A stretch of 33,558 bases of DNA from the NCBI RefSeq assembly GCF_004421185.1, contig NZ_LXQB01000055.1, positions 1 through 33,558 on the forward strand, in the 5' to 3' direction. This DNA comes from Methylacidiphilum sp. Yel. Lineage in GTDB: Bacteria > Verrucomicrobiota > Verrucomicrobiia > Methylacidiphilales > Methylacidiphilaceae. The notes under the pieces are model-generated. The model was not told the DNA's origin. It saw only the letters and a program-made list of their open reading frames with translations, and did no database searches. Below, piece by piece: positions 4,489 to 31,556 of this stretch (position 1 is the stretch's first letter; every line of letters starts with the position of its first letter). Made by a program: the position numbers and the translations under genes.

Positions 4489-5973
4489 TCAGATTGAATA
4501 GCCTTGTTCCCCATGCTCAGAAATATCAAGCCCTTGAGTTTCTACTTCTTCATCAACTCGTAATCCGACAAGAGCTTTTACAACAAAACCAATGATCACT
4601 GAAGCCAGAGTAGCAAGAACAATAGTGATCAATATTGCTTTTGACTGAGCTATCCATAAAGTACCACTAGTGACGCTTGCTGCCAGACCATTTTTCTTTG
4701 CCACTGCCTCACTTAACAAATTGGCATTTACTGCAGGATCGACAAAGACTCCCGTTAAAAACGCTCCAAGCATACCTCCTACTCCATGAACCCCGAAAGC
4801 ATCGAGAGCATCATCGTATTTTAAAAGTGGCTTAATAACTGAGCAGGCAAAATAAGGAATGATCCCTGCAGCCAGTCCGATTATCACTGCTCCTGTGCTA
4901 TTAACAAAACCGCAGGCCGGAGTGATAGCCACCAGGCCAGCTACCGCGCCTGTGGAAAACCCAAGAACTGTTGGCGTCCCCTTTAGAGTATATTCAAGCA
5001 TAGGCCACGTAAGAGAAGCTACCGCCGTGGCAAGTGTTGTAGTCATGAAGGCGTTAGCAGCAATTCCATCCGCTGCCACAGCACTACCTGCATTAAATCC
5101 ATACCATCCAATCCAAAGGATGGCTGCTCCAACCATACAGTAAGTCATGTTATTAGGAATTATAGGTTCTATGCCAAATCCCTTTCTTTTGCCAAGCAAT
5201 AGAGCCAGGATCAATGCTGACCATCCGGAAGTCATATGGACCACTGTTCCTCCAGCAAAATCAATAGCAGGAATCTTTGCTCCAGAATTAAATACCCCAT
5301 TCATCATGCCGCTTGCTCCCCAAACCATATGAGCTTGGGGAAAATAGACAAAAAGCATCCATAAGGTGATAAATATTAAAACAGCAGAATACTTCATCCG
5401 TTCTGCAATGCCTCCCATGATTAAAGCAGGAGTAATAACAGCAAACATCATTTGGAACATGCAATAGACATTTTGTGAAACCCAGAAGGAATAGTTTGTA
5501 TTCGGAGCTGAGTCGACGCCTTTAAGGAAGAAATATTCTGTGCCACCAAGAAAATAACCAAGTGGACTACCTGAAAAATTCGTTCCAAAAACAAGACTAT
5601 ACCCTATTGCCCACCAAAGTACAGTTACAAGCCCTGTAATACCCAGGCATTGAGCAAGCACTGAAAGAATGTTTTTTGATCGTACTAGTCCTCCATAAAA
5701 AAGAGCCAAACCAGGAAGGGTCATAAAGAGGACCAGCGCAGTAGAAGTCAGAAGCCAAGCATTGTGTCCTGGTCCTGAACTTCCCACAATCTTGCTTCCC
5801 GACGGGTCAGAATTGGTGATATATGCTTCAAGACCTGCAACACGTTGTTCCAATGTTGGAGGGGGAGAAGGAGCTTGAGTGACTGCGGCCGGACTCTGCT
5901 TATGTGTAAAAGCAATGCCCATGGCTATTAATAGAATTGCCGCCAAGATCCCCAAAAAAATAAATGCTTCCAT
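4489..5973 (-). CDS. amtB: Ammonium transporter (Amt/MEP/Rh family)
   Basis: Inner-membrane ammonium channel of 494 residues. After an N-terminal hydrophobic leader (MEAFIFLGILAAILLIAMG) and a linker comes the Amt core: LVLFMTLPGLALFYGGLVRS, then about ten further membrane helices. The pore His residues lie in GGTVVHMTSGWSAL and DAFGVHGVGGMLGAF. The C-terminal cytosolic tail (GLDISEHGEQGYSI) is the PII-contact region in relatives. The frame is open up to an ATG at 6021 (510 residues), but that codon has no Shine-Dalgarno and would lie 2-3 bases from the start site predicted by the sigma-54 element at 6034-6049. I prefer ATG 5973, which has GGAG ten bases upstream. Confidence 0.93.
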   Translation of the reverse strand: MEAFIFLGILAAILLIAMGIAFTHKQSPAAVTQAPSPPPTLEQRVAGLEAYITNSDPSGSKIVGSSGPGHNAWLLTSTALVLFMTLPGLALFYGGLVRSKNILSVLAQCLGITGLVTVLWWAIGYSLVFGTNFSGSPLGYFLGGTEYFFLKGVDSAPNTNYSFWVSQNVYCMFQMMFAVITPALIMGGIAERMKYSAVLIFITLWMLFVYFPQAHMVWGASGMMNGVFNSGAKIPAIDFAGGTVVHMTSGWSALILALLLGKRKGFGIEPIIPNNMTYCMVGAAILWIGWYGFNAGSAVAADGIAANAFMTTTLATAVASLTWPMLEYTLKGTPTVLGFSTGAVAGLVAITPACGFVNSTGAVIIGLAAGIIPYFACSVIKPLLKYDDALDAFGVHGVGGMLGAFLTGVFVDPAVNANLLSEAVAKKNGLAASVTSGTLWIAQSKAILITIVLATLASVIIGFVVKALVGLRVDEEVETQGLDISEHGEQGYSI

Positions 5974-6033
5974 TTTGTGACGACTCCGATCTATAATGAC
6001 AGTAGAAGAAGGATTTTTCATCGAAAACTAATA

Positions 6034-6049
6034 AGCAAAATCTATGCCA
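6034..6049 (-). promoter_or_regulatory. Sigma-54 -24/-12 promoter of amtB
   Basis: On the minus strand the 16-mer TGGCATAGATTTTGCT matches the consensus TGGCACG-N4-TTGCW at all but two positions, with the invariant GG and GC in register. Predicted transcription start is near 6023-6024. The same TGGCAT form occurs before the PII gene (12490-12505) and the NasS-like gene (27484-27499). Confidence 0.62.
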
Positions 6050-6101: not shown

Positions 6102-6117
6102 ACACAACAAATAGTAT
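6102..6117 (+). promoter_or_regulatory. NrdR box 1
   Basis: ACACAACAAATAGTAT matches the 16-base NrdR box consensus (ACACWATATATWGTGT) at 13 positions. It lies exactly 31 bases, about three helical turns, before a better second box. Paired boxes at this spacing are typical of NrdR-repressed ribonucleotide reductase operons. Confidence 0.72.
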
Positions 6118-6132
6118 TTTTAAAAAATAAAT

Positions 6133-6148
6133 ATACATTATATAGTGT
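6133..6148 (+). promoter_or_regulatory. NrdR box 2
   Basis: ATACATTATATAGTGT matches the NrdR box consensus at 14 of 16 positions and lies 75 bases before the nrdA start. With the box at 6102-6117 it forms the expected pair. The NrdR repressor gene itself is not in the window. Confidence 0.78.
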
Positions 6149-11541: not shown

Positions 11542-12072
11542 ATGAACTGGAGGATTGAAACAAAAAAAACGGCCGTTCTCTTGATCGATCTTCAGGATAA
11601 ACTTTTGTCTGTGATTGAGAATCGGGATAGGGTTGTGCAGAAAGCCGTACAGATTGTCAAATTGGCGAAATTATTTTCATTACCTCTTTATATCACCGAG
11701 CAGGTGCCTGAAAAATTGGGAACGACTTGCAAGGAGATTCTTGAAGTTTCTGGAGAAGTTCCTCGGCTCTCGAAAAACACCTTTTCGGCAAGTCCCCTCT
11801 TGCCTGCTGATATTCCAAAAAATATTCTTGTATGTGGAATAGAAACTCATATCTGCGTACGCCAAACAGTGTATGATTTGAGGATGAGAGATAAGACCCC
11901 TTATGTCTTAGGGGATGCTGTCAGTTCTAGAAATCAAATTGACCATCAGTTGGGGATAGAAGAAATGAGGCAGGATAGAGTGTTGATTAGTTCAGTTGAA
12001 GCGATAGCATGGGAAATGATCGAAAAAGCTGAAGGGGCCTTTTTCAAGGAATTTCTTTCTATTTTAAAATAG
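11542..12072 (+). CDS. Isochorismatase-family cysteine hydrolase
   Basis: A 176-residue alpha/beta hydrolase of the isochorismatase/YcaC group. The catalytic triad is visible as Asp16 (VLLIDLQDKL), Lys78 (RLSKNTFSA) and Cys105 (CGIETHICVRQTVYDL). Substrates in the family range from isochorismate to nicotinamide and ureidoacrylate; none can be assigned here. The gene lies 42 bases after lysA on the same strand. Its last nine bases overlap the end of the convergent PII gene, so the two mRNAs are complementary at their 3' ends unless terminated inside the coding regions. Confidence 0.88.
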   Translation: MNWRIETKKTAVLLIDLQDKLLSVIENRDRVVQKAVQIVKLAKLFSLPLYITEQVPEKLGTTCKEILEVSGEVPRLSKNTFSASPLLPADIPKNILVCGIETHICVRQTVYDLRMRDKTPYVLGDAVSSRNQIDHQLGIEEMRQDRVLISSVEAIAWEMIEKAEGAFFKEFLSILK

Positions 12073-12444
12073 AATAGAGGTTTGGGGTAGCTGTGAAGTA
12101 TTTTTCTTGGTCAAGGGGCTAGGGGCAACGATCTGATAAACCCGGGAGATAGGAATAATAGTTATTTTGCCACCTGTGTTTTTGTCGATGTTTATAGTGT
12201 TATCAAGCGCCCTAAGGATCGTTTGTAGCTTGCTTTTGGGGACAACAATCTCTAGTTTATAGAGTGTTTTTAATACTGGGAAATATTCGTCGCCTCTATA
12301 TTTTTCGATTCTATTCTCTTCTTCCTCTAAACCTTTAACTTTATACATTGTAATGGAAAAGATCTCTTCTTTGAATAAATTTTTTCTTATTTCTCCTAGT
12401 TTAAAAGGTTTGACGATCGCCTCTATTTTCAGCAAAGAATCCAT
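12064..12444 (-). CDS. Divergent PII (GlnB/GlnK-like) signalling protein
   Basis: A 126-residue PII-family protein: IEAIVKPFKLGEIRKNL at the start, a T-loop region (residues 39-56) with YRGDEY where Tyr54 matches the uridylylated Tyr51 of GlnB, then KLEIVV and TGGKITIIPISRV. By eye several ligand residues differ from GlnB: Gln39 is Glu, Lys58 is Leu, and Arg101/Arg103 are Gln/Val. The usual TGKIGDGKI is IDKNTGGKI. Canonical ATP/2-oxoglutarate binding is therefore doubtful. A 15-20 residue tail extends beyond the normal end. A sigma-54 element lies upstream. Its target could be AmtB or the NasS system, but neither is adjacent. Confidence 0.85.
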   Translation of the reverse strand: MDSLLKIEAIVKPFKLGEIRKNLFKEEIFSITMYKVKGLEEEENRIEKYRGDEYFPVLKTLYKLEIVVPKSKLQTILRALDNTINIDKNTGGKITIIPISRVYQIVAPSPLTKKNTSQLPQTSILF

Positions 12445-12489
12445 AAAAGTAAAAGAGAGAGAAATTTAAGTCAATCGTGACTTTTAAAA

Positions 12490-12505
12490 AGCAATAATTA
12501 TGCCA
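12490..12505 (-). promoter_or_regulatory. Sigma-54 -24/-12 promoter of the PII gene
   Basis: On the minus strand TGGCATAATTATTGCT has GG and GC in the correct -24/-12 register and shares the TGGCATA and TTGCT blocks with the amtB element. The predicted start is near 12480, about 36 bases before the PII start codon. Confidence 0.62.
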
Positions 12506-17249: not shown

Positions 17250-19674
17250 CTAAAACAAATAGCTTAAGGTTCCTTGAATCCAAAAAGGCATTCCTGGAAC
17301 AATATTAGCGTAATCAAAAATTCTTGCCGCTTGAATTCCTGCCCCAAAAGGTAACCAGTATTTATTATCCGTTGTGTTGAAAAGGTAAAGGGAAAATTGC
17401 CAGTGGGGGAGGGAGTAAAAAAGCCGTGTTCTAATAATAAATTCAGGAGGAATGGAATCAGCATAGTTATACCCAAGAAATTGTCTACTAAACCAACTAA
17501 GCCCTACCGTAAATCCTAATCCTGAAGAGGAAGCATAGTTGATCATGCCATCTATAACATTTGTTGGCCAGCCAATAAATGGATAAACGCCAGCAGGAAA
17601 AAAAGCATTGTTGTTTAGAGGTAAAGAAAATAGTAGTGCCTCACTGGTAGAGTAAGTCTGAGTTTCTAAGGGGCCATGACCGACATTTGTCCAGTCTTCC
17701 ATCCCATATTGGTAGGCATAGCCTAGCCGGCAGAGTAAGGATGGGTGAGGTTTATAAGAAAAGTCCAGTTCAAAACCATTCACTGTTGTCTTTGTAGGTG
17801 TCAGTCCTACATTATCGATCCAAAGGTCTTGGGAAAAAATTGTGCCATCAATAAACAACCGCTTGTTTAAAATGTTTAATTTTATGCCAGCTTCATAGAG
17901 CTTGTCGCCTTGATGGAAGGATTGGGAATTAAAAAGAGGAGAGTACCCGCCAAGGACTGCTGCATCAGTAGTATATTCGAAGATGTACGTAAAATAAATG
18001 TTCATCCACTCAAAGGGCATGGAACTAGGACTGATTGAGAAGAGGGGGAGGGATTGTGTTGTTTTTAATTCCTTAAAAAGCATTGGAGGAGTTCCAGGAG
18101 GAGTTTGAGCCTGTACAAAGTAGTTGGTATCTCTTAGCCCTAGAGAAAGGTTCCAAGATTGGTTTAAGCTTATTGTTTGCTGTATAAAAGGAGCTATAGA
18201 GAAAAAAAAGCTATTTGTAGATCCTCCAGAACCATTTAAAGGATTAAAAAAATAGCCATTTGGGGCACCAGGAATTGGCCAAAGCCCCCCAAATTTTGCA
18301 TGGGGATTCATTATATTCTTTTGGAAAAAAGAAGAAGAAATCATATTCCAGCTAGTAGGTAAGCTTGAAACCATATCCCAGCTATTTGCTCCAAAGAAAG
18401 AGGTGGCTACATAATCGAGATTTTTTTGGATATGCCATTCAATGCCACTATCCATCAGATCAGTGAATGAAAAAGTTGAATTAGCTTCTGGAAATTCGAT
18501 ATTGGCAACACACTCCGTTCGGTGCCCAATTTCATAATCTCCCCTACTCGAAAGACAATAATAAACAGGGGGCTGCAGGAGTTGTTCCCGGTTAGACCAC
18601 ACCAGGGTATTGTCTAAAATCTTTAACCGGTCATTAATTGAAAATTTCTGAATCAACTGTAACATTCCTAGCATAGCCCGAGCCCCACCTTCCGGATTTT
18701 GAAGGAGGATCCTACGGCTGATTGGAAGAAGAGGACCGGCATAGAGGGAATAGGGAGGATTATTTATTTGTCCCACATTGATTAAGGAAGGCGAAAGAGA
18801 TCCAGAAGAATAGAGACCATTTTCAATTAAGTTTTCCGTTGGCCTATTCATCCACATAAAAAGAGGAGTATAGTCATAGGTTCCGAAATCGCCGAGAAAT
18901 TCGACTTGATAGTTCTCTGGAGAGTGAAATCCTACATTAAAATATAGGTTTTGTTGATCGTTGTGAACATATTGATAATAATTTCCATTTTCCATGCCTT
19001 GATAGCTGATTCTATAAGCAATATTTGGAGAGATTGGTCCTCCTAAGTCTATAAGCCACATATATTTTTCGTACATACCAGTGGTCCATTGAGCTGATCC
19101 ACGAAAAGAATCAAAATAGGGTTGTTTTGTTAGATAGTTGGTCACTCCAGAGCTTGTTTGGGTGGCTCCAAAGATTGCTTGTGCGGGACCTTCGATAAAA
19201 TCGAACGATTCAATCATGTTCCAGTTCATCGGAATTCCTTGGAAGGCGCCGTTTTGGATGTTCATTTCAATGCCATTAATATAGGGAGTAGAAGGATAGC
19301 CTCTTGAGAAGGGAGCTATCCCTAGACCGTAGTTTACCGATGAATAAGCAGAAGGGATATAAAAGACCACGCTTAGAGGATCTAAAAAAGGCTGCAATCC
19401 CATCCCTAACGCCTGAATGAGTGTTTTGTCGATTGTAAAAACGGTGCGAGGACTATCTAAGATGTCCACTGGTCCGAAGCCTTTCGAGGGTGAAAGCAAA
19501 AAGGAAGACTTTTCTTTTTGATTCTATTGGCACTTGCCCTTTGACTTTTATTGGTGGAACGGCTAAAGCATCCTCTGCCACAGCATCGGCTGTGGAACCC
19601 ACTCCCTTATCAGGATAAATACAAGTGATTAAAAAAAGGGGAGTCAGATAAAATACAATCTGCCTCTGGCTCAT
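17250..19674 (-). CDS. TonB-dependent outer-membrane receptor, interrupted by one frameshift
   Basis: The gene reads in two frames. The first (19674-19453) begins MSQRQIVFYLTPLFLIT, a signal peptide, and reaches VPIESKRKVF. The second runs from about 19499 to 17250, 749 codons: SPSKGFGPVDILDSPRTVF, a plug domain (GYPSTPYINGIEMN, FIEGPAQAIFGATQTSSGVTN), then a 22-strand-type barrel ending in Phe (GTLSYLF). Deleting one T from the TTTTT run at about 19498-19502 joins the two frames. Either the gene has just been inactivated, it is phase-variable, or a base is miscalled. The start codon overlaps the narK stop as ATGA, so it belongs to the nitrate operon. The ligand is unknown. Confidence 0.82.
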
Positions 19675-20984
19675 TTTTTTCTTTTTTCGATCTCCTCTTC
19701 CTCTTTGGATCCAAAAGTTAAAAAAGGGAAGAAAAGGAATTTCTTGCTTTTATGCGGACTTTCCAAAAAAGGATATGGAGGGAAAGGTCTTTTGCCTTCT
19801 GATAGCGAGACAATAGAGATGATTCCGCAAATTAAAAAAAAGAGCGAAAAGAGTCTGAAACCAAAAGAGCAAGAACCAAAAGATTCTTTGATTTTTCCAA
19901 GAAAAATAGGTAAGAGAAAACCGCCAATGCCTCCTGCAGCTCCGACAATTCCTGTCGTTAAGCCAATATGGGAGGCAGCTTGCGTGCCCACCAATTGAAA
20001 TATGGCTCCATTGGCTAGGCCAAGGCATCCCATCATAAAAAATATTGGAGTTAATTCTAAAAGCAGAGGAAAGTAAAAGGAGGGAAGAAAAGCAAAAAAA
20101 CTACCTAAACTAAATAAAAGAATCAATACCTTCATTCCGCCCAATTTGTCGGCTATGGCTCCACCTAAAGGCCTTAAAAGGCTTCCAGAGGCAATGAGCA
20201 AAGTTTGAAGCCCCCCCGCGTTTACTTTCTCTACTCCATACTCATCGACCAGAAAGAATCCCAGATAGCTTGAGAAACCTATAAAACCACCAAAAGAAAG
20301 GCTATACAAAAGGGATAAAAGCCATGTCTTTTTCTGACAGAGCACTCGACAGATACTTTCCTTTGTAATTCTTTCATTCTGGGGCCGAGGAGCATCTTCA
20401 GCAAAAAAAAACACGAAAAGGAAAACAATGAATAAGAGCAGGAAGAAAAAGCCAAAAACCGAATGCCACCCGTATCTGTGTGCAATCATAGGACCGAAAA
20501 GTGTGCTAAGAAGCGTGCCGCTATTTCCGCTTCCAGTCAGTCCTAAAACAAGTCCTTGATGCTGCGGCAAAAACCACCTGCTTGCCATTGGAATGGCGAC
20601 GGCAAAACTTGCTCCTGCAACTCCAAGAAGGATACCGATGAGATATATTTCTTTAAGAGTATGGGCAAATACAAAACCCCAGACGAGGGGGATAAACGAA
20701 ACTCCCATGGCAATAAGAGCCGTTTTTTTCCCTCCATAGCCTAATTCAGCTATTCCCAAGGCAATTCGTAAACTGCTTCCTGAAATAATAGGTATAGCCA
20801 CCATAATACCTTTTTCTACCGGTGTCAGCTTCAGTTCATCTGCTATAAAGGTCCCCACAGCCCCAAGAATCACCAATATGGCAAAACTGATGTCGAAATA
20901 GAGAAAAGAAGAACAAAGGGTCAAAAGGCTTTGTTTATTGACAAAGACATTGGAAAAAAAGGGCTTTTTCATGAGGGAGAGCAT
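19671..20984 (-). CDS. narK: Nitrate/nitrite MFS transporter (NarK/NasA type)
   Basis: A 437-residue major-facilitator protein with about 12 membrane helices. Features of the nitrate/nitrite porter family are the Arg in TM2 (SGSSLRIALG), GLTGSGNSGTLLSTLFGP and the glycine-rich signature GAAGGIGGFLLPIFLG in the second half. It should import nitrate for assimilation, given nasA, nirB and nirD immediately upstream. A second Met at residue 5 is an alternative start; neither has a good Shine-Dalgarno. It begins 55 bases after nirD and ends in an ATGA overlap with the TonB receptor. The C-terminus is basic and glutamate-rich. Confidence 0.93.
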   Translation of the reverse strand: MLSLMKKPFFSNVFVNKQSLLTLCSSFLYFDISFAILVILGAVGTFIADELKLTPVEKGIMVAIPIISGSSLRIALGIAELGYGGKKTALIAMGVSFIPLVWGFVFAHTLKEIYLIGILLGVAGASFAVAIPMASRWFLPQHQGLVLGLTGSGNSGTLLSTLFGPMIAHRYGWHSVFGFFFLLLFIVFLFVFFFAEDAPRPQNERITKESICRVLCQKKTWLLSLLYSLSFGGFIGFSSYLGFFLVDEYGVEKVNAGGLQTLLIASGSLLRPLGGAIADKLGGMKVLILLFSLGSFFAFLPSFYFPLLLELTPIFFMMGCLGLANGAIFQLVGTQAASHIGLTTGIVGAAGGIGGFLLPIFLGKIKESFGSCSFGFRLFSLFFLICGIISIVSLSEGKRPFPPYPFLESPHKSKKFLFFPFLTFGSKEEEEIEKRKK

Positions 20985-21039
20985 TTCGGGCTAATGTTGT
21001 TTGTAGCCATGGGGATTTTTATAAAAATCTGGTGGTTTT

Positions 21040-21339
21040 TTACAAGGTAGGATAAACTTTAATTCGAAACTTTTCAGAGATTGTGCAGTTGCCCGTTTCA
21101 AAAGAAAAAGAGTAAGCATGCAGTGGACAAATGAAGGTCTTTTCATCACATAGAGCTTCGGCAATTGGCCCTCCTTGATGTGGGCATTGGCCTTCGACTG
21201 CCCATATTTTCCCTGTATGGGTTTTAAAGAGGGCAATTTTTATCTTTCCAATTCGAAAGCATCTACCTATGCCACTGACCAGTTCGTTGAGGTGACATAC
21301 TTGATAGAGCCTCTCATTATCCAGCATATTGCCATTCAT
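21040..21339 (-). CDS. nirD: Nitrite reductase small subunit, Rieske-type
   Basis: A 99-residue Rieske [2Fe-2S] protein, partner of NirB. The cluster motifs are CPHQGGP and CPLHAYSF, followed by ETGNC near the C-terminus. It is closer to stand-alone Rieske ferredoxins than to E. coli NirD, which has lost the cluster ligands, so here it should carry a real cluster. The frame is open from 21444, but that would overlap nirB. AAAGGAGA just upstream of ATG 21339 fixes the start. It follows nirB by 22 bases. Confidence 0.9.
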   Translation of the reverse strand: MNGNMLDNERLYQVCHLNELVSGIGRCFRIGKIKIALFKTHTGKIWAVEGQCPHQGGPIAEALCDEKTFICPLHAYSFSFETGNCTISEKFRIKVYPTL

Positions 21340-21361
21340 TATTCGTTCTCCTTTTAGGATT

Positions 21362-23803
21362 TTAGGAAATGGGATTAGGACAGCTTGTTTCAGAAGCAAA
21401 TTGATAGGGAAATTCTTCCTGTTGGGCAGCTTTCCAAGGATCATCGTAGGCCGCTATCGCCTGTTCTATTTCTCTATCTAACCTGTTTTTTTCGGCTTCC
21501 GGAGCTGAGAGTATTTCAGATCTTATTGCTTCGATTCCAAGCCGTTCAACAAAACTATAGCTCCTTTCTGCATATTTTGCGTTTTCTCGATAGTATTGAA
21601 TGAACCGGCCGATACATACAAGCGCCTCCTCATGATCCTTAACGACTGTGAGAAGATCTCCAGCTCTAACCCTTGACCCTGCAGCCCCTCCAATATAAAT
21701 TTCCCAGCCTGTTCCAATAGCTACAACCCCAATGTCTTTGACAGTGGCTTCTGCACAATTCCTCGAACAACCACTTACCGCAAGCTTGAGCTTTGCTGGA
21801 GTTTCTACTCCCTGAAATCTCTTTTCAATTGCTATCCCAAGCTTAGTAGAATCGCCTACACCAAATCGGCAAAATTCGATTCCAACACAGGTTTTGCAGG
21901 TTCTGAAAGCTTTCGTATAGGCATGACCGCAATTCATTCCCAGCTCTTTCCATACCAAAGGCAGTTGCTCTTTTTTTAGTCCAAGCAAGTCTATTCTTTG
22001 GCCTCCTGTAATTTTTATCATGGGGATCTTATATTTTTCGGAGACATCAGCAATTTTTCGTAGTTGTTCAGGAGTGGTGATGCCTCCATAGATTCGAGGA
22101 ACTACCGAATAGGTCCCATCTTTTTGAATATTTGCATGAACTCGGTCATTGATGAATCTCGCATCTGGTTCTTCTTTGTATGATTTAGCCCAGATGGTTT
22201 TTAAAACGCTGGCTAACGCCGGTTTGGAGGCAGCTTCTTCTTTTCCTCCTGCTAGTTGTTGAAAGACAGCTGAAACGCTTCGTAGTTGTCTTTTTTTAAT
22301 CTCTTCGATCAGTTCCCTTTTTTTCAAAGGAATGCAAGGTACATAATAATGGATGGAAGGATCGTCAGAAATTGACTTTTGAGTTGTATTTTCAAAGAGT
22401 CTTTGTACAAGACCTCTGCAACTACCACATCCAGTTCCAGCTCGACTGATGGTCATGACTTCTTTGAGGGTAGAAGAGCCTTTTTGAATAGCTTGTAGAA
22501 TTTCTTTTTTCGTTACTCCATTGCAGTTACATACTTGAAAATCCTCCGGTTTGTTTTCTATTGGTTCTTCTTTTGTTGTGACGGTTCCTTCGGTTAGAAG
22601 ATCTTTTGGAGCACAGGTTAGGGGGAGGGATTTTTCATAGAATTGCACTGCTTCTAATGCGTGGGATGAAGGTCCAAGGAAAATCCCTCCAATTATATTC
22701 TTTTCATTGATCACGATTTTCCTATAAATTCCTCGGTTTGGTTCGGCATAGAGCACACTCTCTTCCCCACCTTCTGGTTCAATGCGGCCAAAAGAAAGAA
22801 GGTCGATTCCGGCAACTTTCAATCGAGCAATCGGCAGAGAACCATTGTAGCCTTGTGTATGGGCTTTGCCCATGAGTGATCGTGCGGCTATAGCGGCTTG
22901 CTGCCAAGCAGCGGCAACTAAACCGTAGGTTTGGCCATTAAACTCGATGCATTCGCCTATAGCAAAGATCCCAGGATGAGAAATCGATTCCATACGAGAA
23001 TCGACAAGAATGCCTTTGTTTACAGCAATCCCGGAGTTTTTAGCCAACTGGCAGTTTGGTTCAATTCCCGTAGCAATAACAACGAGATCTGCTAGGGCTT
23101 CTTTGTGATTTTCAAGTAAGATGGCCAGGCTATTGCCTTTATTTTCTATGCCGATCGTTCTTGTTTTTATCAAGACTTGGATATTAAGTTTTTCTAACTC
23201 CTGTTTTAAAATAGCTCCCGCCATTTCATCGAGTTGCTTTTCCATCAAATGGCCCATAAGATGGATAAGACTGACCTGTAGCCCTCTTTTCTTTAAACCA
23301 TAGGCTGCTTCTATCCCTAGAAGTCCTCCGCCAATGACGATTGCCTTTTTTGCCTCTGAAAGAAGCCTGAGAATGTTGTTACAATCGTTGATTTCTCTAA
23401 ATGTGTATATTCTCTGAGCAAGTTTTCCTGATTGATCGAAAATCCCAGGCAATTTAGGGATCGATGGAATACTTCCTGTGGCCAAAAGAAGTTTGTCATA
23501 TGGAATTTTTTCTTTTTCAGTCCATATTCTTTTATTGACTGGATCGATGTGTAAGGCTTCACAACAGTGTCTGACCACAATTCCATGCTCTTGAAACCAT
23601 TGTAAACTTTTAAGTTCAATTGCCTGAGGCTCCGTTTCCCCAGCAAGCAGACTGGAGAGTAAAATTCGGTTGTAGCCAACCCTGCTTTCCTTTCCAAGCA
23701 GAGTAATCTGATAGTGCTCTGTCCCTCCAATTTCGACCAGTTCTTCAAGGAATCTTACAGCAGCCATTCCGGCACCAATGATGAGGAGTTTTTCTTTTTT
23801 CAT
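21362..23803 (-). CDS. nirB: Assimilatory nitrite reductase [NAD(P)H] large subunit
   Basis: An 813-residue cytosolic enzyme that reduces nitrite to ammonium with six electrons from NAD(P)H. The domain order is typical: an FAD/NAD module (IIGAGMAAVRFLEEL at the start, VIGGGLLGIEAAYGL near residue 158), a BFD-like [2Fe-2S] site (Cys425, Cys427 and a later CGSC pair), then the sirohaem domain with the 4Fe-4S/sirohaem ligands Cys639, Cys645, Cys679 and Cys683 (SGCSRNCAEA). Length is normal. Its ATG overlaps the nasA stop by one base (TAATG), showing tight coupling. Confidence 0.97.
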   Translation of the reverse strand: MKKEKLLIIGAGMAAVRFLEELVEIGGTEHYQITLLGKESRVGYNRILLSSLLAGETEPQAIELKSLQWFQEHGIVVRHCCEALHIDPVNKRIWTEKEKIPYDKLLLATGSIPSIPKLPGIFDQSGKLAQRIYTFREINDCNNILRLLSEAKKAIVIGGGLLGIEAAYGLKKRGLQVSLIHLMGHLMEKQLDEMAGAILKQELEKLNIQVLIKTRTIGIENKGNSLAILLENHKEALADLVVIATGIEPNCQLAKNSGIAVNKGILVDSRMESISHPGIFAIGECIEFNGQTYGLVAAAWQQAAIAARSLMGKAHTQGYNGSLPIARLKVAGIDLLSFGRIEPEGGEESVLYAEPNRGIYRKIVINEKNIIGGIFLGPSSHALEAVQFYEKSLPLTCAPKDLLTEGTVTTKEEPIENKPEDFQVCNCNGVTKKEILQAIQKGSSTLKEVMTISRAGTGCGSCRGLVQRLFENTTQKSISDDPSIHYYVPCIPLKKRELIEEIKKRQLRSVSAVFQQLAGGKEEAASKPALASVLKTIWAKSYKEEPDARFINDRVHANIQKDGTYSVVPRIYGGITTPEQLRKIADVSEKYKIPMIKITGGQRIDLLGLKKEQLPLVWKELGMNCGHAYTKAFRTCKTCVGIEFCRFGVGDSTKLGIAIEKRFQGVETPAKLKLAVSGCSRNCAEATVKDIGVVAIGTGWEIYIGGAAGSRVRAGDLLTVVKDHEEALVCIGRFIQYYRENAKYAERSYSFVERLGIEAIRSEILSAPEAEKNRLDREIEQAIAAYDDPWKAAQQEEFPYQFASETSCPNPIS

Positions 23804-25944
23804 TATTTTTTTTCCTTTCTTATTTCAGTGTGCGTGGTTTGCTCCGTAGGGGATTGAATCTTAGCTGCACACAGCTTAAATGAAGGCATTTTGGAAAGAG
23901 GATCAAAAAGGGATAAAGTCAGCGCATTGGCTTCTACCTGTCCGTTGGAATAAAAAGGGATAAAAAGAGTGTCGAGCCGTAGATTGGGAGAAAACTTTGC
24001 TTTGAAGTATCCTTTACCCCTTTTTGTTTCCACTAAGACATATTGACCATCCTTTATTCCAAAATGACGAGCAACGGCTGGGTTTATCTCGACGATAACA
24101 GAAGGTTCCTTTTCTTGGAGTTTTTGAATAAGCCGAGTCTGCACCCCTGTTTGGTAATGATATAAAGTTCTTCCTGTTGTTAGGTAGAAAGGATATTCGC
24201 TATTTGGTTCTTCAGGAAAAGCGATGGGATAAACGGGATGAAATTTTGCTTTCCCTTTATCTGTAGGGAATCTTTTGCTAAGGAAGATATCTTTTTGACC
24301 TTTGCTTAGGAAAGAATGGCATGGCCAATAAAGCTCTTCTCCTCTAGAAAGCCTTTGGTAGGTAATTGCAGAATAATCTGCAGCTGCTCCAGCGGTAGCT
24401 CTTCGAAGTTCTTCAAAGATGGCTTGTGGATCTGAAGAAAACCTTACTCCATAGCCAAACTTTTCAGCTAGTAAGTGAATGATTTCAAGGTCTGTTTTAA
24501 CGTTTTTCGGAGGATCTAAGATTTTTGGTCTGAGCAAGACACGGCCTTCAAGATTTGTGACTGTACCTGTTTCTTCAGCCCAAATCGCTGTGGGTAAAAC
24601 AACATCAGCCATCGCTGCCGTTTCGGAAAGGAAAGAATCACATACAAGGAGAAATTCCAACTGTGGGAAAAGCCGCTTGAGCTTTGAATTATTTGGAGAA
24701 GATACAATAGGATTGGCTCCAAAGACTAGCATCGCTTTAATACCCTGCGGCTTTTCAAGGGAGTCAAAAATTTCGGTTACACTTTTGTCAGAGGATGGCA
24801 AATCCTTTTCATCGATTTGCCAGAGCCTGGCGATATAGTTCCTGTCGAAAGAATCAAGATTGCTTCGAGCACCTGGCAATTGATCAGGTTTGAGCCCAAA
24901 TTCTCTGGCTCCTTGCCCATTGCCTTGACCAGTCAAAGTACCAAATCCTGAATTTACTTTTCCTACAATCCCAAGAGCTAGGGCAAGGTTGATAAAGGAA
25001 AGGACGTTAAAAACCCCTTGGGTTTGCTGTTCACACCCCCTTCCAGTAAGAATGACAATGTTCTTTTCGGTTTCTAAAAGTTCAGCTACCCTCAATAACT
25101 CTCTTTGAGAAATACCTGTCAGAGTTTCAACTTTGGCAGGCCAAAAAGAAGAAACAGAGTTGGGGATCTTTTCAAATCCATAAGTGTAATTACGAATAAA
25201 ATAGTGGTCGATCTTATTCTTTTGGATCAACAGATAGAGCAAACCATTGGCTAGGATACCATCGGTTCCGGGTTTTATTTGCAGATGCACATCCGCATAG
25301 GTAGTTGTTGGGGTAGGCCTTGGATCAATAGCGATGATTTTTTTGTTCCTTTTTTTCAAGCAGTCAAAATGGGTCCGAATGGGAGGCATGGTTTCCAATG
25401 GGTTTGTTCCAACGAGTAAGAGCAAATCAGTATGGGCAATATAGTCGATGGGAAAGGGTAGCCCTCTATCTATTCCCAAAGCCATTTCAAGAGCTTTAGA
25501 TGCCGAAGCCATACAATATCTTCCGTTGTAATCGATTGCTGAAGATTGCAAGGCAACACGGGCGAATTTTCCAAGGAGATAAGCTTTTTCATTGGTTAAA
25601 CTCCCGCTCCCATAAACGAAGATAGAACTATTTCCCCACTGTGATCGAATCTGGGAAAGCTTTTCTACTGTAAAAGAAATAGCCTCTTCCCAATTAGATG
25701 CTCTAAAGGCATTGTCTTTTTTGGATCGGATGAGTGGATTAAGAACTCTTTTAGGATGTTCAATTAAGGCAGCGGCATGCCATCCTTTAATGCAAATTTC
25801 ACCTTTATTTGTAGCAAACTCTCTTGGTTCTACCCTAAACCCATGACTATCCTGAACAACCCATATGGCACACTGATAACTACAAAAGGGACAATGCGTT
25901 GAATATTTTGCATATATTCTGTCTTTTATATGTTTTTCGATCAT
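23803..25944 (-). CDS. nasA: Assimilatory nitrate reductase catalytic subunit (molybdopterin)
   Basis: A 713-residue member of the DMSO-reductase family that reduces nitrate to nitrite in the cytoplasm; there is no signal peptide. The N-terminal 4Fe-4S ligands are Cys18, Cys21, Cys25 and Cys51 (HCPFCSYQC, GEICIKGW). Molybdopterin-binding regions include GNGQGAREFG and the C-terminal domain from about residue 590 (YPFYLTTGRTLYHYQTGVQT). It lacks the C-terminal BFD [2Fe-2S] extension seen in some NasA/NasC proteins, so electrons must come from another carrier, perhaps NirB/NirD or a ferredoxin. It is the first reductase gene of the operon, after a 437-base gap. Confidence 0.95.
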   Translation of the reverse strand: MIEKHIKDRIYAKYSTHCPFCSYQCAIWVVQDSHGFRVEPREFATNKGEICIKGWHAAALIEHPKRVLNPLIRSKKDNAFRASNWEEAISFTVEKLSQIRSQWGNSSIFVYGSGSLTNEKAYLLGKFARVALQSSAIDYNGRYCMASASKALEMALGIDRGLPFPIDYIAHTDLLLLVGTNPLETMPPIRTHFDCLKKRNKKIIAIDPRPTPTTTYADVHLQIKPGTDGILANGLLYLLIQKNKIDHYFIRNYTYGFEKIPNSVSSFWPAKVETLTGISQRELLRVAELLETEKNIVILTGRGCEQQTQGVFNVLSFINLALALGIVGKVNSGFGTLTGQGNGQGAREFGLKPDQLPGARSNLDSFDRNYIARLWQIDEKDLPSSDKSVTEIFDSLEKPQGIKAMLVFGANPIVSSPNNSKLKRLFPQLEFLLVCDSFLSETAAMADVVLPTAIWAEETGTVTNLEGRVLLRPKILDPPKNVKTDLEIIHLLAEKFGYGVRFSSDPQAIFEELRRATAGAAADYSAITYQRLSRGEELYWPCHSFLSKGQKDIFLSKRFPTDKGKAKFHPVYPIAFPEEPNSEYPFYLTTGRTLYHYQTGVQTRLIQKLQEKEPSVIVEINPAVARHFGIKDGQYVLVETKRGKGYFKAKFSPNLRLDTLFIPFYSNGQVEANALTLSLFDPLSKMPSFKLCAAKIQSPTEQTTHTEIRKEKK

Positions 25945-26381: not shown

Positions 26382-27428
26382 TCAAATAGAAATGGGCAAG
26401 GTATTTGCTTTTTGTTGAGCCACTATTTTTTCAGCTTGCTTATAAATTTCAGGATCAAAAAACGATTGGTTTTTTCTTTCTCCTATCTTTAATACTCCAG
26501 CATCAACCATTTCATTAACAATCCACTGTTCCTTTTCTTTTGAGGGGCTGTTGGCATTGCCTTGACTAAAGACATGAAATGCCTGTCCTGGAATAAAGAT
26601 GTTTTTCCCCATTCGAAAAGGTCCAATAAGGCTGTGTCGAAGCACTTCTAGAGGCTGAGCAATCCATCCCCCATAGTGCAGCATTTCGGCCAAAGCCTGT
26701 CTGTTAAGAGGGCTGTCTGCCCATTGGCAGGCTTCTATAAGAGAGCCAACAATCCGTATATGTTCTTCCCTTTTTCTTTCTTTGTACTTTGCATTTGCAA
26801 GCAATACTTTTTCGGGATGTCTTGGAGCTAGGTCAAGACTTGTAGCCACACAATAACCCGTTTTTTCGAACAGTGAAACAGAATTCCATGGTTCTCCAAC
26901 ACAAAAGCCATCAATAAATCCTTCTTTGAGGTGAAGAGGCATTTGAGGAGGAGGCAAGGGAACAAAGCGAATATCCTTTTGTGGATTTAAGCCTATCTTT
27001 TGAAGCCATCGAAGAAGGAGAAAATAGTGGCTAGAAAAAGTGGAAGCTACACCAAAAAGTAGAGGAAGGGCGCTGGTTGCTTTTAAAATCCTTCCATAGT
27101 TTTCAAAAGGTTCATTTTCTAAGATCGAGCTATATTTTTTAGAAAGAGTGATTGCATTGCCATTAAGATTCAAAACGAAGGCTGTTGAACATCGATAGGG
27201 AATCGATTTTAAACCATAATTCAAGACAAGGGGTAGACCGCAGACGGCTTGAGCAAAATCCAGCTCTTCATAGACAATCTTTCCTCGGATCGTTGCCCAG
27301 CCAGGCTCAGGACTAAGGTGAACGTCAAAACCCCACTTTTTAAATAATCCCATTTCTAAAGCTACGACCAACGGAGCACAATCGATCAAAGGAACATAAC
27401 CAATGGTTATTTTAGATCCTATCCTCAA
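26382..27428 (-). CDS. NasS/NrtA-like nitrate-binding sensor protein, cytosolic
   Basis: A 348-residue protein of the NrtA/CmpA substrate-binding fold: IGYVPLIDCAPLVVALEMGL, GWATIRGKIVYEELDFAQAV, GFIDGFCVGEPWNS and the C-terminal half LRHSLIGPF. It has no signal peptide and no ABC permease or ATPase beside it, which fits NasS, the cytosolic nitrate/nitrite sensor of NasST systems, better than a transporter subunit. The frame is open to TTG 27512, but TTG 27428 has GAGGAGGT eight bases upstream, and the sigma-54 element at 27484-27499 lies inside the longer reading. No NasT (ANTAR) gene is in the window. Confidence 0.82.
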   Translation of the reverse strand: MRIGSKITIGYVPLIDCAPLVVALEMGLFKKWGFDVHLSPEPGWATIRGKIVYEELDFAQAVCGLPLVLNYGLKSIPYRCSTAFVLNLNGNAITLSKKYSSILENEPFENYGRILKATSALPLLFGVASTFSSHYFLLLRWLQKIGLNPQKDIRFVPLPPPQMPLHLKEGFIDGFCVGEPWNSVSLFEKTGYCVATSLDLAPRHPEKVLLANAKYKERKREEHIRIVGSLIEACQWADSPLNRQALAEMLHYGGWIAQPLEVLRHSLIGPFRMGKNIFIPGQAFHVFSQGNANSPSKEKEQWIVNEMVDAGVLKIGERKNQSFFDPEIYKQAEKIVAQQKANTLPISI

Positions 27429-27483
27429 TGCTCTACCTCCTCGTGTTACTTCCCCCCCTCTTCCAACTTTGTCTCTTTTCTCA

Positions 27484-27499
27484 AGCAGGTAGAATGCCA
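27484..27499 (-). promoter_or_regulatory. Candidate sigma-54 promoter of the NasS-like gene
   Basis: TGGCATTCTACCTGCT on the minus strand has GG and GC at the correct distance and shares the TGGCAT block with the amtB and PII elements; the -12 half is CTGC rather than TTGC. Predicted start is near 27474, some 46 bases before TTG 27428. Confidence 0.45.
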
Positions 27500-27563: not shown

Positions 27564-28469
27564 ATGGCTTATCCAATCGATAGTCGTGCTCTTTACATTT
27601 TTGTCAATACCGCTGAATCCGAAAGCTTTTCGCAGGCCGCAAAATCATTGCATCTGAGTCAACCGGCTGTGAGCCGAACAATTCAATCGTTAGAAGAAGA
27701 ATTAGGATGTCGACTTTTTGATAGGGAAGGAAAGAATCCATCGCTTACGGCGATCGGTAGAGAATTTTTGGTCTTAGCAAAAGAAATATTGGCAGGAATG
27801 GAAAAAGCAAGAATTGATATAGAAAATCTTAAAAGGGAAGGACCCAAAAAAATTGTTTTTTCAACAAGCTCGCTTAGTTGTCAATATTTCATTCCACAGA
27901 TTTACAGGGAATTCCAAGAAAGTTTTCCTGACTGCCTTTTTTCAATCATTCCAGCCAATTCTCCTTTGGCGATTGAATTGGTCGAACAGAAAAAAGTGGA
28001 TTTTGCCCTTTCCATTAAGCCAATAGTTCCCTTTGAGGGATTGGTTATGCTAGAACTTTTCCAGGATGAAATCCTTTTTTTAGTAAGCTCTTTTCATCCC
28101 CTGACTCGAAAAAAGGATATTTCTAAAAAGGAGATAGAAACTGCTCATTACTTAATAAAAAATAAGAACGATACTACTTTTCATATAGTTGAGAGGGCAT
28201 TTGCTGAACAATCTTTGTATCCAAAAAATTTCATCGAATTAGCTGAAACCGGCTCCATTAAAGAGATGGTCAAAATGGGTCTTGGAATTGGCATTTTACC
28301 AGGTTGGATTGCCAAAGAAGAACTAAAAAAGGGCAAGCTTCTCTCTCTTTCTTTAATCGCTAGACCTATTATCAGAAAATGGGTTTTCGTATATAGAATG
28401 GGAAGAAAACTTAGCCTTTTAGAAACCACTTTTTTAGAGCTGTGTAAACAATTCTTCCTAAAAAAGTAA
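27564..28469 (+). CDS. LysR-family transcriptional regulator
   Basis: A 301-residue LysR protein. The N-terminal winged helix-turn-helix is clear (FVNTAESESFSQAAKSLHLS, then QPAVSRTIQSLEEELGCRLF, residues 10-50), followed by the two-lobed co-inducer domain (VFSTSSLSCQYFIPQIYREF). It is divergent from the NasS-like gene and followed after 102 bases by the ComA-like gene. It may control nitrate assimilation (as Nac/NtcB/CysB relatives do) or the sulfonate gene downstream. The co-inducer cannot be told from sequence. Confidence 0.92.
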   Translation: MAYPIDSRALYIFVNTAESESFSQAAKSLHLSQPAVSRTIQSLEEELGCRLFDREGKNPSLTAIGREFLVLAKEILAGMEKARIDIENLKREGPKKIVFSTSSLSCQYFIPQIYREFQESFPDCLFSIIPANSPLAIELVEQKKVDFALSIKPIVPFEGLVMLELFQDEILFLVSSFHPLTRKKDISKKEIETAHYLIKNKNDTTFHIVERAFAEQSLYPKNFIELAETGSIKEMVKMGLGIGILPGWIAKEELKKGKLLSLSLIARPIIRKWVFVYRMGRKLSLLETTFLELCKQFFLKK

Positions 28470-29492: not shown

Positions 29493-30002
29493 TCAGTCGT
29501 GAGAAATTCTTGGTGGCTCAACGGTTACTAAAGTAATGATGAAGTTTTTTTCTGAATTTTGGACAATGGCAGCGACTTTTGCAGGCGTTGTTGCAGGTAT
29601 GGAGAAGGTTGCTGGAGCTTTTTTAATGAGGTTACGTAGTGATTTTTTAGGACTGACAATTAAAACAAATGTTTTTGTTCCCTTCGTACTTCGATTTGAA
29701 TGAACTTTAGGAGTTTCTTCTATTATTTGGAATTTAGATCGTAAGGGAATGGCTTCGATGACTTCAGGAGCAATGACTGATTTAAAGGCAAATTCTCCAT
29801 AAGACCAAAGGTTTTCACGGAGTTCCCCTTGGATATCAGCAAGTTTTGGGATTTCTTCAATTGGAACTAAGTGGGAGTTTTCTTTACTAAATCCAAGTCT
29901 TTGATATTCTTTCAGAGCCGTATTTTTCTCTGCCGCATAAGAAAAAGAGGAGAAGAAGAAAAATATCCAAACAATGACAATGGATAAGACTACATGTTTC
30001 AT
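29493..30002 (-). CDS. Small exported protein, paralogue of its upstream neighbour
   Basis: A 169-residue protein with a signal peptide (KHVVLSIVIVWIFFFFSSFS, cleavage near YAA). I recognise no family. The mature part has ENLWSYGEFAF and, at the end, FVLIVSPKK followed by PAKVAAIVQNS and LVTVEPPRI. These blocks match in order and spacing the protein encoded just upstream (30006-30596), so the two arose by duplication. Only three bases separate the genes. The operon also includes a TonB-like protein, suggesting a periplasmic or envelope role. Confidence 0.6.
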   Translation of the reverse strand: MKHVVLSIVIVWIFFFFSSFSYAAEKNTALKEYQRLGFSKENSHLVPIEEIPKLADIQGELRENLWSYGEFAFKSVIAPEVIEAIPLRSKFQIIEETPKVHSNRSTKGTKTFVLIVSPKKSLRNLIKKAPATFSIPATTPAKVAAIVQNSEKNFIITLVTVEPPRISHD

Positions 30003-30005
30003 TAT

Positions 30006-30596
30006 TTATTCCTGGGACAATATCTGAGGAGGAAAAATCATTTCTAACTCCATAAGATGATATCCGGCATCTGTTTTCATATTTACAAGGACCCTTGCAG
30101 GGGCCTCTGGAGAAATATAAAGAATAGAATTCTTTTTAATTGGAGGACAACTTGAATGAACGACCAGAATCACATGATCGAGGTGCTTACTGCTGAAAAA
30201 TGCTGGAACGCCGATCAATGGCCAAAAAATGATACCTGCACCCACAGCCATCCCAGAAGAACTGGCAATTCTCTTAGTCTTATCTCCAGCTATTAAACAT
30301 ACAATTAACCCATCATGTGGACTACTTTGTGCTTCAAACTTTCCATAGACCCAAAGATTGGAAGGACAAATCCCTCTTTTTTGTATCGCTGCCGAGCGAA
30401 GGCGTTGAACTTTAAATAGTTCTTTTTTATTTTCAGTTACATAGCCAGTTTCTTCCTCTTTTGAAGTTACTCCCATTGGGGTACTCTTCTTGTTTATCTC
30501 CTGATTATTAGTGAAAGCTAGGGAAGAAAAGACCAAAAAATAGGTATAAAAAAAGACGATCCAATATTTTTGAAAAAAAGACATGAAACCTACCAA
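30006..30596 (-). CDS. Small exported protein with an extra membrane-like segment
   Basis: A 196-residue protein with a signal peptide (residues about 1-28) and no family I know. It shares with the downstream 169-residue protein the blocks SNLWVYGKFEA, HVILVVHSS, PARVLVNMK and MEMIFPP-like LEMIFPPQI. Between the first two blocks it has a hydrophobic Gly-rich stretch (GMAVGAGIIFWPLIGVPAFF) that is absent from its paralogue and could sit in a membrane. It follows the TonB-like gene by 54 bases on the same strand. Confidence 0.6.
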   Translation of the reverse strand: MVGFMSFFQKYWIVFFYTYFLVFSSLAFTNNQEINKKSTPMGVTSKEEETGYVTENKKELFKVQRLRSAAIQKRGICPSNLWVYGKFEAQSSPHDGLIVCLIAGDKTKRIASSSGMAVGAGIIFWPLIGVPAFFSSKHLDHVILVVHSSCPPIKKNSILYISPEAPARVLVNMKTDAGYHLMELEMIFPPQILSQE

Positions 30597-30650: not shown

Positions 30651-31328
30651 TTACTGAGGAATATAACTTGTCTGATAGTATTTTTCATTGGATGGAAGAG
30701 GAGAATCATCCAGTTCGAAGGTCACTGCTTCTTTAATGAGCCGATTGACATGCAGTGGAAATTTCCAATGGGCATCTATCCAATCTTTTGCTGTTTTGTC
30801 AAGGAGGCGATATCCAGAAGAGCGAACAATTTGAGAGTTGACGATTTTTCCTTTCCGTACATCGAGCATAATAACGACTGTCCCTTCCATATGATGAAGA
30901 CGGGCTTCGTATGGATAAGGGGGTGGGGAAAGGAAAGAAGTGGATAAAGAATATTGACTATACTCTTTGTTTGGCGCATGGAAGGCGCATCTTTTTGTTT
31001 GAGATTGAGAAATAGCTCGTGGACTATTCAGCGGGATGTTTTTCGGTCCTTTCGGATTGGTTGGCAACGGAGAAGGAATAGGGGGAAGGGGAGGTTTTGG
31101 GGCTTCAGCAATAGGGAGAGAAGAAGAAAAATGCTCTGAACTTGAAACAAGATCAATAGAGGAAGAAGAATCTGTTTGGGAAAAAAAGCTATTTTTTTCT
31201 ATTTCAGAACTATTCTTGTTTGGAAGAGAAATCAATGCTAGCAATCCATGAACGCTGGCAGCTAAAAACATACAAAGTAAATAGGCCAGTTTATCTTTTG
31301 AAAAATAACCAAAGGCTTTAGCAATCAT
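30651..31328 (-). CDS. TonB-like energy-transducer protein
   Basis: A 225-residue protein with the TonB plan: a short cytosolic start, one membrane helix (LAYLLCMFLAASVHGLLALI, residues 15-34), a Ser- and Pro-rich periplasmic linker (PKPPLPPIPSPLPTNP, about residues 75-95) and a C-terminal TonB domain (PPYPYEARLHHMEGTVVIML, then WKFP, about residues 135-195). TonB proteins pass proton-motive energy from ExbB/ExbD to outer-membrane receptors; no exbB or exbD is near. It heads a three-gene operon with two small exported paralogues. It may serve the receptor at 17250-19674, but that is a guess. Confidence 0.85.
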   Translation of the reverse strand: MIAKAFGYFSKDKLAYLLCMFLAASVHGLLALISLPNKNSSEIEKNSFFSQTDSSSSIDLVSSSEHFSSSLPIAEAPKPPLPPIPSPLPTNPKGPKNIPLNSPRAISQSQTKRCAFHAPNKEYSQYSLSTSFLSPPPYPYEARLHHMEGTVVIMLDVRKGKIVNSQIVRSSGYRLLDKTAKDWIDAHWKFPLHVNRLIKEAVTFELDDSPLPSNEKYYQTSYIPQ

Positions 31329-31556
31329 TTTTTTTTCTTTTATTGAATTAAAAGCAAGAAGTATGCCAATTTATAAGTATTTGATTACAAATAATTTAAT
31401 TGTTTTCTATCAACTTGCTTTTTAAATTGCCTAAGCCATAGGCTTGCCAACTGCAGAAAATGGTCTAAGCTTTTGGAATTAAAAAAAATTCTGCAAAGGA
31501 AAAAGTTGGGAATATAAACTGCCTGACTGGGAAAGAAATGCACTACTGGAGGACAT

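Follow-up and report, generated by a model that had tools for sequence, protein, structure and literature searches.

The locus raises the question of whether ammonium transport, PII signalling and nitrate sensing are under common sigma-54 control in a verrucomicrobial methanotroph. A preliminary description proposed a single regulon, based on three TGGCAT-type −24/−12 elements before amtB, a PII gene and a nasS-like gene. The window, by which we mean the whole stretch of DNA analysed here, is contig 55 (33,558 nucleotides) of the 2.25 Mb genome of Methylacidiphilum sp. Yel, a thermophilic and acidophilic methane oxidizer. The gene content agrees with a verrucomicrobial methanotroph: the window has nitrate assimilation genes, and other parts of the genome have glnBA, nif and several pmoC loci. 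Expression figures used below are those of a close relative, M. fumariolicum SolV, and not of the window's strain; SolV genes are presumed counterparts of the window genes by gene order, and the order in one genome of the sample, G009, matches the published SolV order (amtB Mfumv2_1275, glnK 1285, nirB 1296, nitrate-binding protein 1299). The family sample comprises 13 genomes, 5 in the window's genus, 7 in a second genus and 1 in a third.

The sigma-54 RNA polymerase rests in a closed state at TGGCAY-N6-TGCT and is fired by an AAA+ activator through ATP hydrolysis. All three elements of the preliminary description are found on the minus strand with GG and GC 10 bases apart, each aimed at the named gene. 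A fourth site, overlooked in that description, precedes a tonB-like gene. The elements and the genes around them are as follows.

4489 to 6021, minus strand: amtB, ammonium transporter (TIGR00836, 417.8 bits)
6034 to 6049, minus strand: predicted sigma-54 promoter of amtB, TGGCATAGATTTTGCT, predicted +1 near 6023
12064 to 12444, minus strand: divergent PII (glnK-like) gene (PDB PII matches of about 1e-13)
12490 to 12505, minus strand: predicted sigma-54 promoter of the PII gene, TGGCATAATTATTGCT, predicted +1 near 12479
19671 to 25944, minus strand: nitrate assimilation genes nasC, nirB, nirD and narK
26382 to 27428, minus strand: nasS-like gene with TTG start, soluble NrtA/NasS-type nitrate-binding protein (PF13379, 213.9 bits)
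27484 to 27499, minus strand: predicted sigma-54 promoter of the nasS-like gene, TGGCATTCTACCTGCT, predicted +1 near 27473
27564 to 28469, plus strand: LysR-type regulator, transcribed divergently from the nasS-like gene, with gene order preserved in the family regions that were examined
30651 to 31328, minus strand: tonB-like gene (PF03544 TonB_C), with two small same-strand genes downstream (30006 to 30596 and 29493 to 30002)
31353 to 31368, minus strand: fourth predicted sigma-54 promoter, before the tonB-like gene, TGGCATACTTCTTGCT, predicted +1 near 31342, kept in 5/5 genus genomes

The amtB, PII and tonB-like sites match TGGCAY-N5-TTGCW exactly, and in the nasS-like site C replaces the first T of TTGC. 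TGGCAYN6TGCT occurs four times in the window against 0.09 expected; the third-order Markov expectation is 0.17 sites per window, and none of 100 dinucleotide shuffles of the window attains four matches. This enrichment is restricted to the sigma-54 spacing, as the 175,562 bases of the window and four syntenic regions contain 20 matches with N6, none with N5 and 3 with N7. Over the whole genome, the strict pattern TGGCAYN5TTGCW is found at 20 sites versus 1 for the reversed pattern, and allowing another base before TGCT brings in 18 more versus 0. The motif is therefore not equally frequent at random, neither in the window nor in the genome, where 38 sites stand against 0 to 1 for the reversed patterns.

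Inspection of flanking ORFs places 24 of these 38 sites between genes and 14 inside genes, so that the pattern alone gives false positives. The intergenic excess has P < 1e-8 even for a genome with 20% non-coding sequence, and 11 of the 24 intergenic sites precede nitrogen-related genes, a strong over-representation; these enrichment probabilities use assumed coding fractions and assumed nitrogen-gene numbers and give orders of magnitude only. The nitrogen-related sites are those of amtB, PII, the nasS-like gene, glnBA, nifA, nifB, nifW (with a fixA-like gene behind it), nifQ, nifH, nifV and an Fe-S biosynthesis gene beside nifA. Other intergenic sites include those of a porin, a TonB-receptor plug protein, secreted proteins, the tonB-like gene, dnaK, a DegT aminotransferase and the divergent pair of pmoC3 and a glyoxalase gene. 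The sigma-54 set is thus broader than nitrogen, as it also takes in the tonB-like gene, porins and pmoC3.

The sigma-54-type site of dnaK lies 12 bases before the ATG (L092, G000:C33:26258-26273). The divergent sites of pmoC3 and the glyoxalase gene (L099 and L019, G000:C60:12481-12496 and 12298-12313) are kept in 5/5 genus genomes and are absent before pmoC1 and pmoC2; a gene for a sigma-54 activator of AcoR-like architecture (L026) lies about 6 kb away. For the acetone-oxidation cluster to which pmoC3 belongs, published promoter predictions covered sigma-70 only (PMC8630023).

Each of the five genus genomes has exactly four sites in its syntenic region, always before the amtB, PII, nasS-like and tonB-like genes, and the amtB site stands at the identical distance of 28 bases before the ATG in each. 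The nasS-like site, previously called the weakest of the three, is not so by conservation: it is kept in every one of the 10 family genomes, from three genera, in which the gene is present. The glnBA site is present in 13/13 family genomes. In the sister genus, a site also precedes the distant PII gene near amtB, a site with a longer leader precedes amtB in five of the genomes read, and a separate sigma-54 site precedes nasC in the two genomes examined. Among 42 loci with nasS-like relatives outside the family, a sigma-54 site is found at only a handful, three of them verrucomicrobial (L150-L152), and such a site is therefore not general for these relatives. In G009, amtB and nrdA are partly duplicated next to the intact genes (L228 3644-6461), and the second amtB copy has TGACAT in its promoter, not TGGCAT.

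The rpoN gene, whose presence the preliminary description made a point to check, is found with an intact frame of 461 aa (PF04552, 1.5e-58). Because rpoN is present, the spacing exact, the orientation towards the genes and the sites conserved, we read the four elements as real, evolutionarily conserved sigma-54 start sites, with predicted transcript starts.

For amtB, translation from the ATG at 6021 would leave an awkward leader of 2 nt behind the predicted +1, and an in-frame start is available at 5973; codons 1–16 vary 4/3/6 by codon position, with too few changes to call this stretch coding or not. The amtB–nrdA intergenic region contains two AT-rich repeats at 6102-6148, ACACAACAAATAGTAT and ACATTATATAGTGT, which we take to be similar to the NrdR boxes that accompany ribonucleotide reductase genes. 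The PII gene of the window is distinct from glnB of the glnBA operon. It evolves fast, with identities of 87–90% to the closest relatives, 54–60% to the rest of the genus and <32% to the sister genus, and its nucleotide-binding GDGK and C-terminal region depart from those of E. coli PII. The nasS-like ORF as listed from TTG 27512 overlaps the promoter. TTG 27428 is conserved and stands mostly behind a purine-rich ribosome-binding site, and is likely the start of the gene. The protein matches nitrate transporter NrtC (8wm7_C) at 1.2e-45 and by sequence has the NrtA-like nitrate-binding fold required of NasS.

Published SolV data speak to how these genes respond. RPKM values with ammonium, under N2 fixation and under O2 limitation are 343/1143/420 for amtB, 28/117/33 for the nasS-like gene, 166/60/203 for the window's PII gene and 69/22651/80 for nifH (PMC3404531). 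On nitrate, amtB is at 1082, the nasS-like gene at 41 and PII at 125, and nirB rises 45-fold from 19 to 854 (PMC5623727). Over six conditions, amtB and the nasS-like gene correlate with a Spearman coefficient of 0.93 and PII and amtB with −0.77 (P 0.07). Therefore, amtB and the nasS-like gene track nitrogen limitation, the nitrate reductase genes track nitrate, and PII runs opposite. In these SolV data the nasS-like promoter follows nitrogen starvation and not nitrate. Of the proposed single regulon, the sigma-54 promoters and the over-representation of nitrogen genes stand; the co-regulation of all three genes is contradicted, because PII falls while amtB and the nasS-like gene rise.

Seven proteins in the genome have a full sigma-54 activator domain. 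One of them, L023, is NifA above cut-off (638 vs 528.85 bits). The upstream regions of nifW, nifH, nifV, nifB and the DegT gene contain NifA sites of the form TGT-N10-ACA, whereas those of amtB, PII, the nasS-like gene and nifA do not. As nifA itself is without a NifA site, the split is not simply nif versus the rest. In agreement with the preliminary description, no NtrC-type enhancer site was found anywhere: at each promoter, even the closest dyad carries 4 mismatches or more. Nor was a gapped word found that amtB, glnBA and the nasS-like gene share in their conserved upstream regions, and with neither dyad nor word a common enhancer was rejected. A palindrome, TGTTCC-N4-GGAACA, lies some 250 bases ahead of the glnBA site (L047) and is kept in 5/5 genus genomes; it is confined to the glnBA/lpd region and may serve the divergent lpd-like gene.

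We consider it very probable that the four elements are genuine RpoN promoters, with amtB and the nasS-like gene in a nitrogen-limitation set together with glnBA and nif, and with PII under a separate input. Most likely, the sigma-54 promoters of amtB and the nasS-like gene belong to a general nitrogen-limitation response, PII being placed on a second input. Several nif promoters would use NifA through its upstream sites, and the window promoters, being without such sites, would need another activator. PII would share the sigma factor and be regulated in the opposite sense, either by a separate input or because a poised sigma-54 complex limits another promoter. Production of the nasS-like protein in nitrogen starvation would ready the cell for nitrate sensing, and the nitrate reductase genes would be induced by nitrate through something else. 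The divergent LysR-type regulator is a candidate alternative regulator of the nitrate genes.

Several other explanations have to be weighed. A chance origin of the sites, or their use by some other binding protein, is extremely improbable: the pattern is short and 14 of its 38 genomic matches lie in coding sequence, but the shuffles, the spacing control and synteny reject a chance match, and the sites are oriented towards their genes in a genome with rpoN. It is also very unlikely that the nasS-like site drives the entire nitrate operon as one transcript. All of these genes lie downstream on the minus strand, yet a gap of 437 bases precedes nasC, nirB in SolV is strongly induced on nitrate while the nasS-like gene hardly leaves its base level, and N2 fixation brings the nasS-like gene up about fourfold but not nasC. 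Two sister-genus genomes have the separate site before nasC; in the window, no sigma-54 site driving nasC is found within the 437-base gap.

The identity of the activator separates the remaining explanations. In a canonical Ntr regulon, NtrB-NtrC would sense PII uridylylation, bind NtrC sites and activate amtB, PII and the nasS-like gene jointly. Real sigma-54 activators are present, ntrB and ntrC are named in SolV papers, and L024 is an NtrC/AtoC-like response regulator with a Fis-type HTH adjoining a PAS histidine kinase, kept in 12/13 genomes. We nevertheless regard this explanation as unlikely, since no protein passes the curated NtrC cut-off (best 479.7 vs 558.6 bits), the L024 kinase reaches 86.5 where the NtrB model requires 240, any dyad before a site departs from the NtrC pattern at 4 or more positions, and joint induction by nitrogen limitation is not seen in SolV. 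The best NtrC match, below cut-off, is L022 (G000:C13:24528-25979), with receiver and AAA+ domains. It is conserved 1:1 in 13/13 family genomes with a highly conserved AAA+ domain, and among its orthologues HTH_8 scores 13.7 bits in one and is undetected in five others sampled, against 47–54 in other response regulators. Such a protein, without a working DNA-binding domain, might fire the nitrogen promoters from solution and make an upstream site unnecessary, which would fit the failure to find a common upstream element and has precedents in H. pylori FlgR and Chlamydia CtcC (PMC3162934). This too is improbable in our judgement: the tie between L022 and nitrogen is hypothetical, no kinase adjoins L022, some helix residues persist and might still bind DNA, and the absence of a known site leaves room for another kind of site. 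More doubtful still is the fuller version, in which amtB, the nasS-like gene and glnBA are fired enhancer-free by an NtrC-like regulator stripped of its DNA-binding domain while a fast-diverging PII paralogue, with a promoter of this type too, responds the opposite way.

The sigma-54 nitrogen promoters found here form a system of a familiar kind, in a lineage that has received little study. As in the proteobacterial Ntr/RpoN regulon (glnA, glnK-amtB, nas, nifLA), sigma-54 promoters stand at ammonium transport, PII, glutamine synthetase, nitrate assimilation and nif genes. In contrast to that regulon, neither an NtrC site nor a protein above the NtrC/NtrB cut-offs is found here, and amtB and the window's PII gene are not adjacent and are oppositely expressed in SolV. 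The NifA–sigma-54 nif regulon is recognizable by NifA above cut-off and TGT-N10-ACA before nifH, nifV, nifB and nifW, sites that the window promoters lack; no nifL was reported for SolV (PMC3404531). Similar to nasTSABGHC of Paracoccus denitrificans, which is controlled by NtrC and NasS-NasT antitermination (PMC5424462), a NasS-like protein adjoins assimilatory nitrate reductase genes, and nitrogen control is combined with nitrate control. The differences from that system are the divergent LysR gene and the sigma-54 site on the nasS-like gene itself. A search of the 13 genomes for the ANTAR protein NasT gave no match, with the search controls equally silent, and NasT may be present. L022 resembles FlgR and CtcC as a receiver and AAA+ response regulator whose C-terminal HTH is missing or decayed; unlike those cases, the organism has six sigma-54 activators besides it. 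The non-nitrogen sites before porin, TonB receptor, tonB-like and secreted-protein genes are in line with sigma-54 as a controller of the bacterial exterior (PMC3162934), a paper in whose main text Verrucomicrobia go unmentioned.

Published work on verrucomicrobial methanotrophs has described expression changes and named sigma-54 at amtB in general terms only, and we found no promoter map for these organisms in the published work surveyed. What emerges here is a concrete map of conserved sigma-54 promoters in verrucomicrobial methanotrophs. By its NifA sites, nif control is set apart from the control of ammonium transport and the nitrate sensor, and one PII gene departs from the other nitrogen genes. 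Beyond that, the map raises the ideas that activation may proceed without enhancer sites and that sigma-54 may control the pmoCAB3 acetone-oxidation locus.
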